From Deltaproteobacteria bacterium (lineage in GTDB: Bacteria > Desulfobacterota > Desulfobulbia > Desulfobulbales > Desulfurivibrionaceae): 36,265 nt of DNA. The notes below the pieces were generated by a model that was not told the DNA's origin, ran no database searches, and was given only the letters and a program-made list of their open reading frames with translations. How positions within the stretch are numbered: position 1 is the stretch's first letter; each line of letters starts with the position of its first letter. Made by a program: the position numbers and the translations under genes. Shown piece by piece: positions 3,960-31,422 of the stretch. The DNA lies in NCBI GenBank assembly GCA_021811385.1, contig JAJZPC010000022.1, forward strand, positions 1 through 36,265, read 5' to 3'.

Positions 3960-4834
3960 TCCCGCTCTCCTTGAAAAAATTCAAGAAGATATACCTTGAG
4001 ATCACCAACCGCTGCAATCTTGCCTGCAGCTTCTGCCACAAAAGCAACCGGGCAAAAGCCTTCATGCCTGCGGAGGAGTTCCGCGCCATCCTCGGCGCGA
4101 TCGAGGGGCACACCGATCATCTTGCCCTGCATGTGCTGGGCGAGCCCTTGCTGCACCCGGAGTTGGGCGTTCTCCTTGCCCTCTGCCACGAGCACTCCCT
4201 CAAGGTCAATCTGACCACCAACGGCACCCTGCTCCCCCAGCGCCAGGAGCTTTTGCTGGCCAGCCCTGCCCTGCGCCAGGTCAATATCTCGTTGCACAGC
4301 TTCAGCGAACAGGATGGTGATCCAGGCCGTTCCGGCTATCTCCCGGGAATCTTCGATTTTATCCGGGCAGCCGAGGCCACGGGGCTGCTGATCAGCCTGC
4401 GGCTCTGGAATCTGCCGCCAACCGGCGCCAATCTTCCCTCCCCCAACGACCCCATCCTGAAGGCGCTTGAGGATTTTTTCGGGCTATCCGAGCCGCTGGT
4501 TTCCCGGCTCACCCCCGGCCACGGCATCACCCTGGCCCAGAAAGTATTCCTGAGCCAAAACAATCGCTTCACCTGGCCCCATGGACCGGCCCCGGACCTG
4601 GGCGACAAGGGAACCTGCCGGGGACTCAAGGATCATGTCGCCATCCTGGTGGACGGCACCGTGGTGCCCTGCTGTCTCGATGGTGAGGCGGATATCCCCC
4701 TGGGCAACATCCACGCGCAATCCTTGGCCGGGATTCTCTCCAGCCCCCGCGCCGTGGCCATGCGCACCGGCTTTTCCCAACGGCGGCTCAGCGAGCCCCT
4801 CTGCCGCCGCTGCACCTTCCGGCAATCGTTCTAG
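3956..4834 (+). CDS. Radical SAM/SPASM domain protein
   Basis: The 292-residue protein carries the radical SAM cluster motif C-N-L-A-C-S-F-C at residues 20-27, right after a KKIYLEITNRC start, and the following H-V-L-G-E-P-L-L-H-P and L-T-T-N-G-T-L-L strands of the TIM-barrel core. The C-terminal part has a short SPASM-like region with CRGLKDHVAILVDGTVVPCC at about 220-240 and LCRRC near the end, which would hold an auxiliary Fe-S cluster. The closest recalled group is a widespread family of unnamed radical SAM/SPASM proteins in anaerobes; the substrate is unknown. The start is the TTG at 3956, overlapping the stop of the four-Cys gene. TTG 3971, giving MKKFKKIYLEIT, is an alternative that fits the family N-terminus. 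Confidence 0.85.
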   Translation: MIPLSLKKFKKIYLEITNRCNLACSFCHKSNRAKAFMPAEEFRAILGAIEGHTDHLALHVLGEPLLHPELGVLLALCHEHSLKVNLTTNGTLLPQRQELLLASPALRQVNISLHSFSEQDGDPGRSGYLPGIFDFIRAAEATGLLISLRLWNLPPTGANLPSPNDPILKALEDFFGLSEPLVSRLTPGHGITLAQKVFLSQNNRFTWPHGPAPDLGDKGTCRGLKDHVAILVDGTVVPCCLDGEADIPLGNIHAQSLAGILSSPRAVAMRTGFSQRRLSEPLCRRCTFRQSF

Positions 4835-4842
4835 CCCTTGCT

Positions 4843-5003
4843 TGGTAATCGCGCACCAGTGCCGGAGATGCGCGTGTCAATTGTCGGCAGCAGTGCCGAC
4901 CAAGAGGCCTGCGAAGTGTGCTATTGCACATGAGCAGGCCGATGACAGCTAAGCGAGCGCAGCGAGACTGCGAAGCAGATCCGGTGCTGGTGCGCGATTG
5001 CCA
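4843..5003. repeat. Dispersed palindromic element, copy A
   Basis: Outer arms: TGGTAATCGCGCACCAG at 4843-4859 and, on the other strand from 5003, TGGCAATCGCGCACCAG; complementarity continues to about 29 bases per arm. The 39-base core at 4909-4947 is identical to that of the copy at 30343-30450 and contains the small hairpin TGTGC-TATT-GCACA. This copy is longer than the others because it also holds a perfect hairpin GTCGGCA-GCAG-TGCCGAC (about 4884-4901) and a GCGAGCGCAGCGAG segment. The element carries the rlmN stop codon and its last 17 or so codons. Confidence 0.85.
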
Positions 5004-6112
5004 GCCAGCTGGCCGCAGGCCGCGGAGATATCCGCGCCCCGGCTCTGGCGGATAAAGGTGTTGAACCCCGCGTCGCGCAGCACCTTCTGAAAGGCAAGGG
5101 TCTGCGCCTCGTCCGGGCAGGCGTACTCCGTATCCCCGGAGCCGTTGTAGGGCAGCAGGTTGATCCGGCTGGGGATACCCTGCAGCTTCTCCGCCAGCAG
5201 GCGGGCATCGGCCAGGGAATCGTTGATCCCCTTGAGCATGATGTACTCGAACAAAATCACCTTCTTTTTGCCCAGCGGATACCTGCGGCAGGCGGCGAGC
5301 AGCGCTTCCAGCCCATGGGTCTTGTTCACCGGCATCAGGCTGCTGCGCACCGCGTCATCGGCGCTGTGCAGCGACACGGCCAGATTGACCCGGATGTCCC
5401 GGCCCAGATCATCCATGCGCGGGACGATCCCGCAGGTGGAGACGGTGATCCGCCGTTCGGAAAAGCCGAGGCCGTGGTCGTCCATGAGGATCTTCAGTGC
5501 GGTCAGCAGGTTGTCGTAATTGGCCAGGGGCTCGCCCATGCCCATGAACACCAGATTATTGAGCAGCTCCCGGGGCGTGGCCCGCTCGATGCCGCTGGCA
5601 ACCATGTGGGTCATCACGGCCAGCACCTGGCCCACGATCTCGGCCGGACGCAGGTTGCGGGTAAAGCCCTGCCCGCCGGTGAGGCAAAACCGGCAGCCCA
5701 TGGCGCAGCCCGCCTGGGAAGAGACACACAGGGTATGGCGGCCGTCCTCGGGGATGAGCACGCTCTCGACCATGGCACCGTCGGCGAGCCGGAAGGCGAA
5801 TTTCTCGGTACCGTCCGCCGATTTCTCCACCATGGCAGGGACAAGGCTGCTCATGCAGGCATGCTTGGCCAGGAGCGTTGTCACCTCTTGACTGATGCCG
5901 AGCTGGGAAAAATCGAAGATGCCGGGACGGCACAGCCGGGCAAAGATCTGCTTGGCCCGCTTGGCAGGCAGACCCAGGGACACCACATACGCGCGCAATT
6001 GGTCGAGGGCGAGGTCGCGCAGATCGACCTGCCCGCGCTCCGGTCCGATCAACTCCGGACTGCCCGTTGCCTGTTGTTTTGACTCTATATCCATGCACCC
6101 TCTGTAACACAT
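4949..6112 (-). CDS. rlmN: Dual-specificity RNA methyltransferase RlmN
   Basis: RlmN methylates C2 of A2503 in 23S rRNA and A37 in some tRNAs, using a radical SAM mechanism. The protein has 387 residues with an N-terminal accessory domain (about 25-100), the cluster motif C-A-M-G-C-R-F-C at residues 136-143 following TLCVSSQAG, the G-M-G-E-P-L-A-N-Y-D-N SAM-binding strand, and the methyl-carrying Cys in I-S-A-A-C-G-Q-L near the end. The C-terminus after Gly-Gln-Leu-Ala-Gly does not look like the family tail: its last 17 residues and the stop codon are encoded by palindromic element copy A. ATG 6112 is preceded by GGGCGGA; ATG 6094 is an alternative start. Confidence 0.95.
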   Translation of the reverse strand: MCYRGCMDIESKQQATGSPELIGPERGQVDLRDLALDQLRAYVVSLGLPAKRAKQIFARLCRPGIFDFSQLGISQEVTTLLAKHACMSSLVPAMVEKSADGTEKFAFRLADGAMVESVLIPEDGRHTLCVSSQAGCAMGCRFCLTGGQGFTRNLRPAEIVGQVLAVMTHMVASGIERATPRELLNNLVFMGMGEPLANYDNLLTALKILMDDHGLGFSERRITVSTCGIVPRMDDLGRDIRVNLAVSLHSADDAVRSSLMPVNKTHGLEALLAACRRYPLGKKKVILFEYIMLKGINDSLADARLLAEKLQGIPSRINLLPYNGSGDTEYACPDEAQTLAFQKVLRDAGFNTFIRQSRGADISAACGQLAGNRAPAPDLLRSLAALA

Positions 6113-8309: not shown

Positions 8310-9038
8310 ATGGAACTCATCACCCTGCGCGGGATCGAAAAAACCTACCAGATGGGCGACATCGCCGTGCCCGTGCTGAAAGGCATCTCCCTGGCCATCC
8401 GGCAGGGGGAGCTGGTCGCGCTCACCGGCTCGTCCGGCTCCGGCAAGTCCACCCTGATGAACATCCTGGGCTGCCTGGACCGCCCGACCGCAGGCGAATA
8501 CTGGCTGGACGGCCAGGAGATCTCCACCCTCTCCGCCGACGAGCGGGCCCTGCTCCGCAACCGCAAGCTGGGCTTTGTCTTCCAGAGCTTCAACCTCCTG
8601 GCCAGAACCAGCGCCATCGAGAACGTGGCCATGCCGCTCTCCTACGGAGCCGGGCATTTAAGCGAACGCGAGGCCAGGGAGCGGGCTGCGGAGATGCTTA
8701 CCAGGGTGGGGCTGGCCGACCGGCTGGACCACCACCCCGCCCAACTTTCCGGCGGCCAGCAGCAACGGGTGGCCATCGCCCGGGCTCTGATCAACCGCCC
8801 GCCGGTGCTCTTTGCCGACGAGCCCACCGGCAATCTCGATTCCAAGACCAGCGAAGAGGTGCTGCAGATGTTCGAGCGGCTCAACACCGAGGATAGGATC
8901 ACCATCATCATGGTGACCCACGATCCCAAGGTGGCAGGACACGCCAACCGGGTGATCCGCATGCAGGACGGGGTGATCCTCGATGATGCGCCCCCCACCG
9001 CCGGTGCAAATCCAAACACCCCGGCAGGCGCGCCATGA
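8310..9038 (+). CDS. ABC transporter ATP-binding protein (MacB/LolD type)
   Basis: The 242-residue ATPase has all core motifs: Walker A G-S-S-G-S-G-K-S-T at about 40-48, a Q-loop in F-V-F-Q-S-F-N-L-L, the signature L-S-G-G-Q-Q-Q-R-V-A-I-A-R-A-L, Walker B P-V-L-F-A-D-E-P-T-G-N-L-D, and the switch His in M-V-T-H-D. This is the LolD/MacB/FtsE group that powers mechanotransmission pumps. In enterobacterial MacB this domain is fused to the permease; here it is a separate gene whose stop overlaps the permease start (ATGA at 9035-9038). The start ATG at 8310 follows a GTAGAGGG site at close range. Confidence 0.95.
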   Translation: MELITLRGIEKTYQMGDIAVPVLKGISLAIRQGELVALTGSSGSGKSTLMNILGCLDRPTAGEYWLDGQEISTLSADERALLRNRKLGFVFQSFNLLARTSAIENVAMPLSYGAGHLSEREARERAAEMLTRVGLADRLDHHPAQLSGGQQQRVAIARALINRPPVLFADEPTGNLDSKTSEEVLQMFERLNTEDRITIIMVTHDPKVAGHANRVIRMQDGVILDDAPPTAGANPNTPAGAP

Positions 9039-10402
9039 TGCTCTACACCACCGCCCGCACCGCCTTTCGGACCCTGCGCCGCAATCCCATGCGGGCCATG
9101 CTCACCACCTTGGGCATCGTCATCGGCGTGGGCGCGGTCATCGCCATGATGGAGATCGGCGCAGGCGCCTCGGCGGCGCTGAAAAAAACCATCGCCAGCA
9201 TGGGGGCCAACGTCCTGGTGGTCCGGCCCGGCACCGCCTCCAGCGGCGGGGTCTCCTTCGGGGCAGGCTCCACCACCACCCTGACCCCGGAAGATTGCCA
9301 GGCCATCCTGCGGGAATGCCCGGCCGTGCGCAACGCCGCGCCCATGGTCCGCGCCCGCACCCAGGTGGTGTACGGCAACCGCAACTGGGTGCCCAACGCC
9401 ATCTACGGCACCACCCCGGCCTATCTCGATGTGCAGGACTGGTCCATCCTGGCCGAGGGCGAGCCCTTCAGCGACCGGGATGTGCTCAACGGCAACCGGG
9501 TCTGCATCCTGGGGCAGAGCCTGGTCCGGGAACTGTTCGATAACGAATCTCCGGTGGGCAAGGAGATCCGGATCAAGAACATCGCCTTCCGGGTGATCGG
9601 GGTTCTCACCCCCAAGGGCGCCAACATGATGGGCTTCGACCAGGACGACGTCATCCTCGCGCCCTGGACCACCATCAAATACCGGGTCACCGGCGCCACC
9701 CTCTCCACCGCCAACCAGAGCACCGCCACGGCCAGCGATTCGGTCAACACCCTATCCAACCTCTACCCTGCGGTTAAACGCGGCCTCTACCCGGAGCAAT
9801 CCAGCGTCCAGCAGGCCGACAACCCCATGCCGGTGCGCTTCGCCAATATCGACCAGATCATGCTCGCGGCCAACAGCTCGGCGGAGATCCCCCTGGCCGT
9901 CGAACAGATCACCGGGGTGCTCCGGGAGCGGCACCGTATCCGCGCCGGCGAACCGGATGATTTCAATGTCCGCGACATGGCCGAGCTGACCCGCACCCTC
10001 TCCACCACCACCAAGCTGATGACCAACCTGCTGCTGGCCGTGGCCATGATCTCCCTGGTGGTGGGCGGGGTGGGGATCATGAACATCATGCTCGTTTCCG
10101 TTACCGAACGGACGCGGGAGATCGGGTTACGCATGGCCGTGGGCGCACGGGGCAAGGACATCCTCCGGCAATTTCTCGTGGAAGCGGTGGTGCTCTGCCT
10201 CACCGGCGGGGCCATGGGCATCGTCATCGGCCACGGCGGCTCCCTGCTGGTACAGGCTCTGCTCAAATGGCCGGTGGAGACCTCGCCCGCAGCCATCGCC
10301 ACGGCGGTGCTGGTCTCGGCCGGAGTGGGAATCATCTTCGGATTCTATCCGGCCTGGAAGGCCTCGCGGCTTGATCCCATCGAGGCCCTGCGCTATGAAT
10401 AA
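9035..10402 (+). CDS. MacB-type ABC transporter permease
   Basis: The 455-residue protein has the MacB topology: an N-terminal membrane helix (about residues 20-45: NPMRAMLTTLGIVIGVGAVIAMMEIGAG), a large periplasmic core domain (about 50-320), and three C-terminal helices belonging to the FtsX domain (LLLAVAMISLVVGGVGIMNIMLVSV, the helix after RQFLVEAVVLCLTGG, and the last near VGIIFGFYPAWKASRLDPIEALRYE). The conserved E-R-T-R-E-I-G-L-R-M-A-V-G-A coupling helix is present. With the adaptor and ATPase it should move substrates from periplasm or inner leaflet through the outer-membrane channel. The TAA stop is followed at once by palindromic element copy B. Confidence 0.95.
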   Translation: MMLYTTARTAFRTLRRNPMRAMLTTLGIVIGVGAVIAMMEIGAGASAALKKTIASMGANVLVVRPGTASSGGVSFGAGSTTTLTPEDCQAILRECPAVRNAAPMVRARTQVVYGNRNWVPNAIYGTTPAYLDVQDWSILAEGEPFSDRDVLNGNRVCILGQSLVRELFDNESPVGKEIRIKNIAFRVIGVLTPKGANMMGFDQDDVILAPWTTIKYRVTGATLSTANQSTATASDSVNTLSNLYPAVKRGLYPEQSSVQQADNPMPVRFANIDQIMLAANSSAEIPLAVEQITGVLRERHRIRAGEPDDFNVRDMAELTRTLSTTTKLMTNLLLAVAMISLVVGGVGIMNIMLVSVTERTREIGLRMAVGARGKDILRQFLVEAVVLCLTGGAMGIVIGHGGSLLVQALLKWPVETSPAAIATAVLVSAGVGIIFGFYPAWKASRLDPIEALRYE

Positions 10403-10512
10403 GGTAATTTTGCCCAGCAGCACCGCATCTGCGTTGTCATCGGCCAACTCGTGTGCAATAGCACACTTCATCGGCCTCTTCCTAGCATCTGCGGCCCTGC
10501 TGAACAATTACC
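10403..10512. repeat. Dispersed palindromic element, copy B
   Basis: This copy is in the opposite orientation to A and C. Arms: GGTAATTTTGCCCAGCAG at 10403-10420 and, on the other strand from 10512, GGTAATTGTTCAGCAGG, extending to about 29 bases. The centre has the perfect hairpin GTGTGC-AATA-GCACAC. It begins directly after the permease stop codon and lies inside the efflux operon, before the outer-membrane channel gene, so it could tune expression of that last gene. Confidence 0.85.
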
Positions 10513-10610
10513 GTTCTGGGATTATCCTTATTCCCCTGCTCCGAATTGGAAAATTACTGAATACAAGCACCCGGGCCAACCTCCCGGCCTCTCTTAAAAG
10601 GAGTAACCCC

Positions 10611-30268: not shown

Positions 30269-30342
30269 GATATTTCAGTCTCGTTTTTCATTTTCTGTCA
30301 CTATTCACAACTCAATGCCGAAAAATAAAATGTTCCCGGAAC

Positions 30343-30450
30343 GATAACTGTTCAGCAGTGCCGCAGATGCGCGAAAGAGGTCTGCGAAGTGTGCTATTGC
30401 ACATGAGCAGGCCGATGACAAAGCAGATGCGGTGCTGCGGGACAGTTATC
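30343..30450. repeat. Dispersed palindromic element, copy C
   Basis: Arms: GATAACTGTTCAGCAGTGCC from 30343 and, on the other strand from 30450, GATAACTGTCCCGCAGCACC. The core at 30382-30420 is identical over 39 bases to copy A and contains TGTGC-TATT-GCACA. The element begins within the stop codon of the ZIP gene (TGA read on the minus strand) and ends before the kinase gene start region. Confidence 0.85.
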
Positions 30451-31264
30451 AGCCGAGCGCCACGTCGAGAACCATCATCACCGCGAAACCCACCAGAGTA
30501 GCCATGGTGACGATATCGATATGTTTCGGATTCTGCTGCGACTCCGGGATAAGCTCTTCCACCACGACAAAGATCATGGCCCCGGCGGCAAAACAAAGGG
30601 CATAGGGCAAAACGGACTGCATGCTCAGGACGAAATAGGCGCCCAACACCCCGGCCACCGGCTCCACCAGCCCGGAGGATTGCCCGAGCATAAAGCTCTT
30701 CGTCCGGCTCATCCCCTCGCGGCGCAGGGGCATGGACACCGCCGCGCCTTCGGGAAAATTCTGCAAACCGATGCCGATGGCCAGGGCAATGGCGCCGCCC
30801 AGGCTTGCAGAGGGGATATTGGCCGCCACCGCGCCAAAGGCCACGCCCACGGCCAGACCCTCTGGGATGTTGTGCAGGGTAATGGCCAGCACCAGCAGGG
30901 TGCTGCGCTGCCAGGAGGTTTTCACCCCCTCGCTCTTGCTGATATCCAGACCGGGATGGAGATGGGGCAAAAAGAGATCGATGAGCCGCATGAACAACCC
31001 GCCGGCCAGAAACCCCATGGCGGCGGTGCGCCAGGGGACGAAGCCCATCTGGCCGGCCATCTCGATGCCCGGGCCGAGCAGCGACCAGAAGCTCGCGGCA
31101 ATCATCACCCCTGCGGCAAAGCCGAGCATGGAATCCATGACCTTCCGGTTCACACTCTTCTGCACAAAAACCAGGGCAGCGCCCGCGGCGGTCACGCCCC
31201 AGGTAAACAGGGTGGCCAACAGGGCCTGGAGAACCGGATTCAATTCCGGGAAAAAAGTAACCAT
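30449..31264 (-). CDS. ZIP family metal transporter
   Basis: The 271-residue protein has eight hydrophobic segments and the ZIP metal-site helices: H-N-I-P-E-G at 131-136 in segment IV and Q-N-F-P-E-G at 168-173 in segment V, where the first His of the usual motif is Gln. A His-rich H-L-H-P loop lies at 101-104. ZIP proteins of this GufA/ZupT group import zinc, iron or other divalent metals; the Gln substitution may shift selectivity. ATG 31264 follows AGGA; the frame continues 48 codons upstream without support. The 3' end touches palindromic element copy C. Confidence 0.93.
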   Translation of the reverse strand: MVTFFPELNPVLQALLATLFTWGVTAAGAALVFVQKSVNRKVMDSMLGFAAGVMIAASFWSLLGPGIEMAGQMGFVPWRTAAMGFLAGGLFMRLIDLFLPHLHPGLDISKSEGVKTSWQRSTLLVLAITLHNIPEGLAVGVAFGAVAANIPSASLGGAIALAIGIGLQNFPEGAAVSMPLRREGMSRTKSFMLGQSSGLVEPVAGVLGAYFVLSMQSVLPYALCFAAGAMIFVVVEELIPESQQNPKHIDIVTMATLVGFAVMMVLDVALG

Positions 31265-31422
31265 GGTGGTATCCTGCCGCCTCTGCCTGGGGTTGCCTGC
31301 CGGAACAGCTTCACACCGCCATTGTATTCCAGAACCAAGGAAAAGTATACGCGGGAAATGGAGCGGAGCACGTCTATCAAGGCTCTGCCTGCAATCTCCT
31401 CTTTCCATTGACCCTTCTTATC

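Follow-up and report, generated by a model that had tools for sequence, protein, structure and literature searches.

Palindromic elements at three gene ends

The window, that is, the whole stretch of 36,265 nucleotides analysed here, contains three related palindromic elements (copies A, B, and C), each of which meets the stop codon of a gene. The elements and the adjoining genes are as follows.

4844..5002, + strand: copy A, diverged (from the sequence; nhmmer match 4846-4999)
4949..6112, - strand: rlmN-like radical SAM gene (Pfam PF04055; the name rlmN is that of the first-pass annotation)
9035..10402, + strand: MacB-type ABC permease gene, ending at copy B (Pfam PF12704, PF02687)
10396..10403, + strand: target duplication of copy B, gene side, TGAATAAG, containing the MacB stop codon (10400-10402)
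10404..10557, - strand: copy B, full unit, inverted (palindrome about 10404-10511; left module about 10512-10557, GTAATTTTCC on the - strand)
10558..10565, + strand: target duplication of copy B, far side, TGAATACA (from the sequence)
30297..30449, + strand: copy C, full unit of the class of about 151 bp (match to covariance model R1, of whose 34 rows it is one, and sequence); left module 30297 to about 30343 (GTCACTATTCA...), palindrome about 30344-30449
30449..31408, - strand: ZIP family metal transporter gene (Pfam PF02535)

Inspection of the sequence agreed with the first-pass annotation in that the three elements lie at the positions it gave and meet the stop codons of rlmN, MacB, and ZIP, that copies A and C are identical over 39 core bases while copy B is inverted, and that the frame Lys-Cys-Ala-Ile-Ala-His-Glu-x-Ala-Asp-Asp occurs in all three copies. 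Its limits for copies C and B were too short, and the actual units, 30297-30449 and 10404-10557, include a left module of about 46 nt. The 17-base core AAGTGTGCTATTGCACA, with at most two mismatches, was found three times in the window and in none of 100 shuffles, and a chance repeat was therefore rejected. In copies B and C the arms pair and form one long hairpin each (-63.7 and -65.1 kcal/mol, z about -10).

The three elements meet their genes in different ways. The TGA stop of the ZIP gene (30449-30451) overlaps the right tip of copy C, which lacks an intact target duplication. The MacB stop is one base from copy B and lies within its 8-bp target duplication, the two sides of which (TGAATAAG/TGAATACA) are equal at 6 of 8 bases. 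Copy A has additional inner hairpins and neither a recognisable left module nor a target duplication. The rlmN stop (4949-4951) falls inside it, and the last 16 or so codons of the gene (window 4949-4999, NRAPAPDLLRSLAALA) are copy A sequence, at the point where relatives of rlmN have a two-residue ending after QLAG. A conserved core peptide was considered and rejected, since the sequence and the length of the core vary, by eye, in other families of the order.

A high-copy family across the order

The three elements are copies of a high-copy, non-coding MITE family. BLAST revealed at least 40 copies in the genome to which the window belongs (43 matching pieces, three of which only complete copies that had been split in two); the search scored 40 of 57 candidates, and the diverged copy A is not among the matches. 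This genome is unfinished (2.6 Mb, 108 contigs, 75% complete). The family was found in 17/17 genomes of the host genus and is patchy outside it. By BLAST it is present in at least 44 of 58 genomes, and the covariance model R1, for which 34 of 39 candidate rows were used, has matches in at least 81 of 97 genomes of the order; both counts include the window's own genome and those of the genus, and are lower bounds because a limited number of candidates was scored per genome. In eight genomes scored in depth, 24 to 141 model matches were obtained per genome, and since palindromes may match on both strands, the distinct copies may be fewer. The high copy number that the first-pass annotation had suggested from three copies, and for which it had proposed a covariance-model search of the genome and its relatives, is thus borne out across the order.

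An exact search with a 34-base core in named genomes returned 73 stretches, whose titles name Desulfobulbaceae, Desulfurivibrio, Desulfobacterales, and unplaced Deltaproteobacteria or Proteobacteria MAGs; oddly, a taxonomy look-up placed 22 of the 73 as Myxococcia. Carriage by plasmids or phages was rejected, as no match was found in viral contigs (exact core only), plasmids, or phages. Rfam gave no match at the gathering score over the window, nor did one full copy match with E values as high as 1, and among open-licence PMC papers no title dealt with this MITE family or with MITEs of Desulfobulbales.

Limits of the unit and target duplications

The palindrome of about 108 bp that had been described earlier is the right part of a unit of about 151 bp. 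When the flanks of 132 distinct copies were aligned, a left module of about 46 nt was seen to precede the palindrome, on one side only. The left module begins with GTAAYTATYCAGC (GTAAC) and often ends with AAAACCACGGAATG, and the right end of the unit reads ...GTTAC. The ends of the whole unit are thus inverted (GTAACTRTYCAGC), with terminal inverted repeats starting GTAA (left, GTAACTATCCAGC; right, as reverse complement, GTAACTGTCCAGC). Intact copies are flanked by perfect 8-bp target duplications.

Duplications were scored in two sets. The genus set consists of 132 of 151 non-overlapping matches, after removal of those that were too near a locus end or identical; an 8-bp repeat (at least 7/8) stood beside a GTAA-like start in 27 of the 132 copies, against 0-1 in five permuted controls. 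Six shifted controls of the same scan gave 1, 8, 2, 0, 0, and 0, and the 8 at shift 2 perhaps reflects overlap with true repeats or low-complexity matches. The second set comes from four genomes of other families and holds 71 of 90 model matches, weaker ones that overlapped stronger ones on the opposite strand being omitted; it was not de-duplicated, and two of its copies are too near a locus end for a duplication to be scored. In this set 53/71 copies have a duplication (at least 7/8; the permuted control refers to the genus set only), and in 49 of these 53 it sits exactly at the limits that the model had defined in advance. Membership of the duplication-bearing class requires a recognisable left end. 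Since duplications were found directly at the palindrome in 4 of 202 copies (permuted, 0-1), the palindrome alone may sometimes move.

In G031, a genome of another family, there are 31 matches to the left-module pattern and 26 weaker model matches, and no BLAST match to the palindrome. One locus there (L172, 1493-1545; G031:C251) holds the left module alone, 37 bp in length, with the 8-mer TCACAATT on either side.

Ends shared with IS66 insertion sequences

Judged by its tips, its duplications, and its partner, the element is an IS66-type MITE, a known kind of element, because GTAA tips and 8-bp duplications are hallmarks of IS66 and because an IS66 element shares the ends of the MITE. An excerpt of PMC11946415 gives 8-bp direct repeats and ends starting GTAAGCG for the IS66 family. 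In the order, IS66 elements carry GTAA at their tips and are flanked by 8-bp duplications (L128, L137, L138), and perfect duplications were present in 11 of 30 IS66 loci of the order, L305 being L138 again. In G048, a MITE-bearing genome with 24 MITE model matches, we found an IS66 element of 1,729 bp with the duplication GAATATTT that encodes a PF03050 protein. Its ends, GTAACTATCCAGCTTG and GTAACTATCCAGCTC, are identical to the left end of the MITE (16/16 and 14/14), so that an IS66 element with the same ends resides in the same genome. The IS66 element of L138/L305 has GTAACTGTTCAG in common with the palindrome tip. Based on these sequence comparisons, an IS66-family transposase likely moves the MITE in trans.

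The MITE differs from IS66 in its length of about 151 bp, in having no transposase gene, and in its unrelated interior, in which no sequence is common to the MITE and the G048 IS66 element beyond the tips. The MITE tips are mostly GTAACT or GTAAAC, against the GTAAGC of IS66 in the excerpt of PMC11946415. A transposase with matching ends, as the first-pass annotation had proposed to look for, was thus found in G048, but none was found in the 17 genomes of the host genus, which are 75-99% complete (PF03050 and an IS66 transposase query). The IS66 partner in the genus might have been lost, might have been missed in incomplete MAGs, or might be another element.

Empty sites in relatives

We then compared the three gene ends with their orthologues, reading 200-240 nt past each stop codon. 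The ZIP end is occupied in the window genome and in G006, where a change in the tip of the copy is compensated; the other eight genus relatives that yielded a full orthologue lack the element (8/9 empty). The MacB end is occupied in the window genome and in G006, G011, and G003, while seven of 11 relatives have no insertion and G009 has a different repeat. At the rlmN end, copy A is absent from 12/12 genus relatives, 11 of which are without any element of the family; the twelfth, G009, has a different copy in the opposite orientation, with the stop inside a 7-of-8 duplication. The empty orthologous sites that had been proposed as a check are therefore present at all three genes and, together with the GTAA tips, the 8-bp duplications, and the IS66 element with the same ends, they bear out the suggestion of a mobile MITE.

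Other sequences were seen at the same gene ends. In G031 a related-looking element lies 36 nt downstream of ZIP. The repeat at the MacB orthologue of G009 (L267) is unrelated (GCGTCGCAGATAAGCGCAGACTTCG...) and stands directly past the stop codon. Past the ZIP stop in L239, L240, L242, L244, and L246, and likewise downstream of rlmN in L287, L290, and L297, other inverted repeats (for example TGAAAAGTGAAGAGTGAAAAATG...CTTCACTTTTCA) were seen by eye where the element is absent, and these are possibly different small mobile elements.

Position relative to stop codons

All stop positions rest on a simple, purpose-written gene caller that uses dicodon scores (coding fraction 0.85). In the genus, 125 of the 132 copies lie between two called genes, seven lie at locus edges, and none lies inside a gene; in the other families one of 71 copies is inside a called gene. 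A random placement of copies inside genes with no preference for stops, which the first-pass annotation had put forward as the contrary outcome, is thus not what the genus shows.

The right end of the unit faces the 3' end of a gene in 85 of the 125 copies. Among these 85, the tip's own TAA is the gene stop in 22, the stop straddles the tip in 10, and it lies 0-7 nt outside the tip, inside the 8-bp target or at its edge, in 36, while a stop 8-20 nt away was seen in only 3. Overall, the right tip is at most 7 nt from a stop in 75/132 copies, against 4.6% of random points, a null that was drawn from gaps without elements and that becomes 16.5% if each gap is weighted equally. The left tip is near a stop in 14/132. 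When likely orthologous sites were merged, the right tip was at a stop in 57-59 of 110 sites, and in the window's own genome in 27/40. The claim that the family is tied to gene 3' ends therefore holds strongly for the right end in the host genus, chiefly for copies without a duplication, but only weakly in four genomes of other families (9/71).

Hairpin structure and strand polarity

In an alignment of 34 full units, 98.1% of the paired cells are standard pairs, and both-side (compensatory) changes occur in 14 of 39 pairs, values reached by 0 of 500 shuffles, which ignore the relatedness of the copies; slid pairing partners score far lower. Non-Watson-Crick cells were counted on the + strand of 85 ungapped genus copies, on which the genus strand statistics rest, and comprised 409 G.U, 34 A.C, and 87 others. 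Three tandem G.A sites are kept in 74, 78, and 78 of these 85 copies, and by eye two other families have Watson-Crick pairs in place of the second site. Of the two strands, the + strand gives the better fold in 85/85 genus copies and in 71/71 copies of the other families (156/156). Since the tandem GA and G.U mismatches help one strand only, they suggest selection on a single-stranded form, either RNA or ssDNA, with part of the pattern being shared ancestry. At stop codons, the mRNA of the adjacent gene carries the weaker-folding strand, so that a hairpin role for that gene is not the simplest reading.

Copies at the same site in different species could be compared in 15 pairs. Compensatory pairs were present in five of these (11 in L103/L069, 4 in L025/L060, and 1-2 in three others) and absent from ten, and 13 had at least one broken pair. 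In some same-site pairs the core is nearly unchanged and the arms differ, with optional inner hairpins coming and going, which would follow from exchange between copies or from repeated insertion.

Insertion and retention at gene ends

Duplication-bearing copies should show a near-insertion pattern, and copies without a duplication what is kept. In the genus, 7/27 copies with a duplication are at a stop, compared with 68/105 of those without (p = 0.0004). In the four genomes of other families the corresponding values are 8/53 and 1/18. Because the duplication-bearing copies exceed the nulls of 4.6% in the genus and 5.7% in the other families, insertion looks mildly biased toward stops in both sets, whereas the strong stop pattern is so far confined to the duplication-less copies of the host genus. 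This difference between old and young copies was observed in a single genus and might reflect lineage, because duplication-less copies of the other families are at stops in only 1/18 cases. The pooled comparison (15/80 with and 69/123 without a duplication, p = 1e-7) mixes age with lineage and is not to be relied on. For tandem gene pairs, the antisense:sense ratio in the genus is 9:6 with and 52:17 without a duplication, and in the other families 16:15 and 5:4 (pooled comparison, p = 0.05). Whether orthologous sites were shared or empty had no link with stop status (19:8 at stops, 6:3 at others).

Retention of the stop-codon copies in the genus is the reading that we favour. We consider it probable that a MITE of about 151 bp is moved by IS66, and that the genus copies with the right tip at a stop are those that survive. 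The unit, its tips and duplications, the polymorphic sites, the IS66 element of the order with the same ends, and the stop-codon excess in the genus are established. On this account, an IS66-type transposase would bind the GTAACTRTYCAGC tips and place the unit chiefly in intergenic DNA. At a gene end this would do no harm, because a stop codon is provided either by the duplicated target or by the tip, which reads G-TAA-C from outside. Insertions elsewhere would be lost, as would those oriented such that an operon mRNA contains the strand that folds more strongly. At gene ends the palindrome would thus survive as a strong hairpin right after the stop, perhaps stabilising or ending the transcript.

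The excess at stops might instead arise at insertion, if the transposition machinery, perhaps an unseen partner of the genus's own, favours gene ends; we regard this as possible but rather doubtful. The enrichment of young copies at stops in both sets and the low value for old copies of other families argue for it, as do the sharp drop in stop positions past the 8-bp target, the different insertions at the rlmN end in the window and in G009 (the duplication of the latter, GCTAGAAC/GTTAGAAC, contains the stop), and two loci (L006 and L095) that hold different copies at apparently the same 8-bp target. Yet among duplication-bearing copies, 20/27 in the genus and 45/53 in other families lie away from stops, and the target 8-mers appear diverse by eye. 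The first-pass annotation's proposal that the elements target gene ends may thus be part of the answer, with retention after insertion favoured. It had also named REP-associated tyrosine transposases as a possible source. Genes for Y1 transposases are indeed present in 16 of 19 genomes searched, including the window's own, but the family has 8-bp target duplications, and to our knowledge neither these nor terminal inverted repeats are expected of HUH Y1 enzymes. Moreover, the element is absent from 12/12 Y1 loci inspected, which are part of the matches listed, and the only copy seen next to a Y1 gene, in L113, adjoins an end that by eye resembles the IS200 type. REP-like elements moved by such enzymes are accordingly a very improbable explanation.

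A different reading is that the palindrome is a functional RNA or ssDNA element that has been domesticated as a gene 3' end and persists through selection on its structure and exchange between copies, its transposon origin being only history. The compensatory changes, the excess of G.U over A.C pairs (409 to 34), the preservation of the three tandem G.A sites in 74-78 of 85 genus copies, and same-site copies with divergent co-varying tips and near-identical cores, as in L103/L069, are all consistent with this reading. We nevertheless consider it unlikely. The mRNA at stops carries the weaker-folding strand, A.C cells are more frequent in copies at stops (29 in 53 copies) than elsewhere (5 in 32), the same-site pairs mostly lack a compensatory pair (10/15) or contain at least one broken pair (13/15), no Rfam match was found in the searches described above, and template switching can keep palindromes paired without selection. 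In view of the co-varying pairs and the strand bias of folding, the mRNA 3'-end structures that the first-pass annotation offered as an alternative are nevertheless a possibility. A combination of these ideas, which we put forward as speculative and slightly less likely still, is that a lineage of transposons now serves as a movable end for genes. Its tip would bring a stop codon, followed by a strand-polarised hairpin with tandem G.A sites; selection would favour copies that have replaced the 3' end of a gene, and the cores would be exchanged among copies, with co-varying, locus-specific outer arms.

Relation to other repeats and to gene ends

REP/BIME elements are palindromic, occur in high copy number, and lie near gene 3' ends, and the present family resembles them in all of this; it differs in its target duplications and in that no RAYT link was found at the 12 inspected Y1 loci. 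The integron attC site was also considered and rejected, as by eye the tips do not fit its core-site consensus.

Excerpts of PMC2229807 list ERIC, NEMIS/Correia, RUP, and YPAL as bacterial MITEs, with effects of ERIC and NEMIS on flanking mRNA shown or proposed, and an excerpt of PMC6382973 describes a copy of MITEAba12 that terminates a gene within its own sequence. As far as these excerpts go, the present family shares with them a size of 100-200 bp, a long stem-loop, and a mostly intergenic location, and it differs in the IS66-type ends, the 8-bp duplications, the extra one-sided left module, the position of the right tip at stops in the genus, and the strand that folds consistently better. 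Rickettsia palindromic elements, as described in the same part of PMC2229807, are likewise palindromic and can join a protein, which recalls the rlmN C-terminus here; unlike them, the MITE is not as a rule found in frame inside genes (0/132, 1/71).

Three features are new here, namely a left module on one side only, the pattern at stop codons in the host genus, and a hairpin with strand polarity. If the copies at stop codons work as gene endings, a transposon supplies stops and 3' hairpins to many genes in these hosts, which are uncultured relatives of sulphate reducers.

MITEs are usually portrayed as leftovers between genes. This family may allow insertion bias and later survival to be told apart, since its copies fall into the two classes contrasted above, and in the host genus the difference between these classes points at stop codons.

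Two further loci are of note. In L113 (1890-2480; G000:C96), a Y1 transposase gene directly adjoins a MITE copy at the latter's left edge and has an end hairpin that looks like the IS200 type. L006 (copy at 339-442) and L095 (copy at 4381-4484) apparently represent one gene end in two species with the same target, GTTTACTT, and apparently reflect repeated insertion or replacement.
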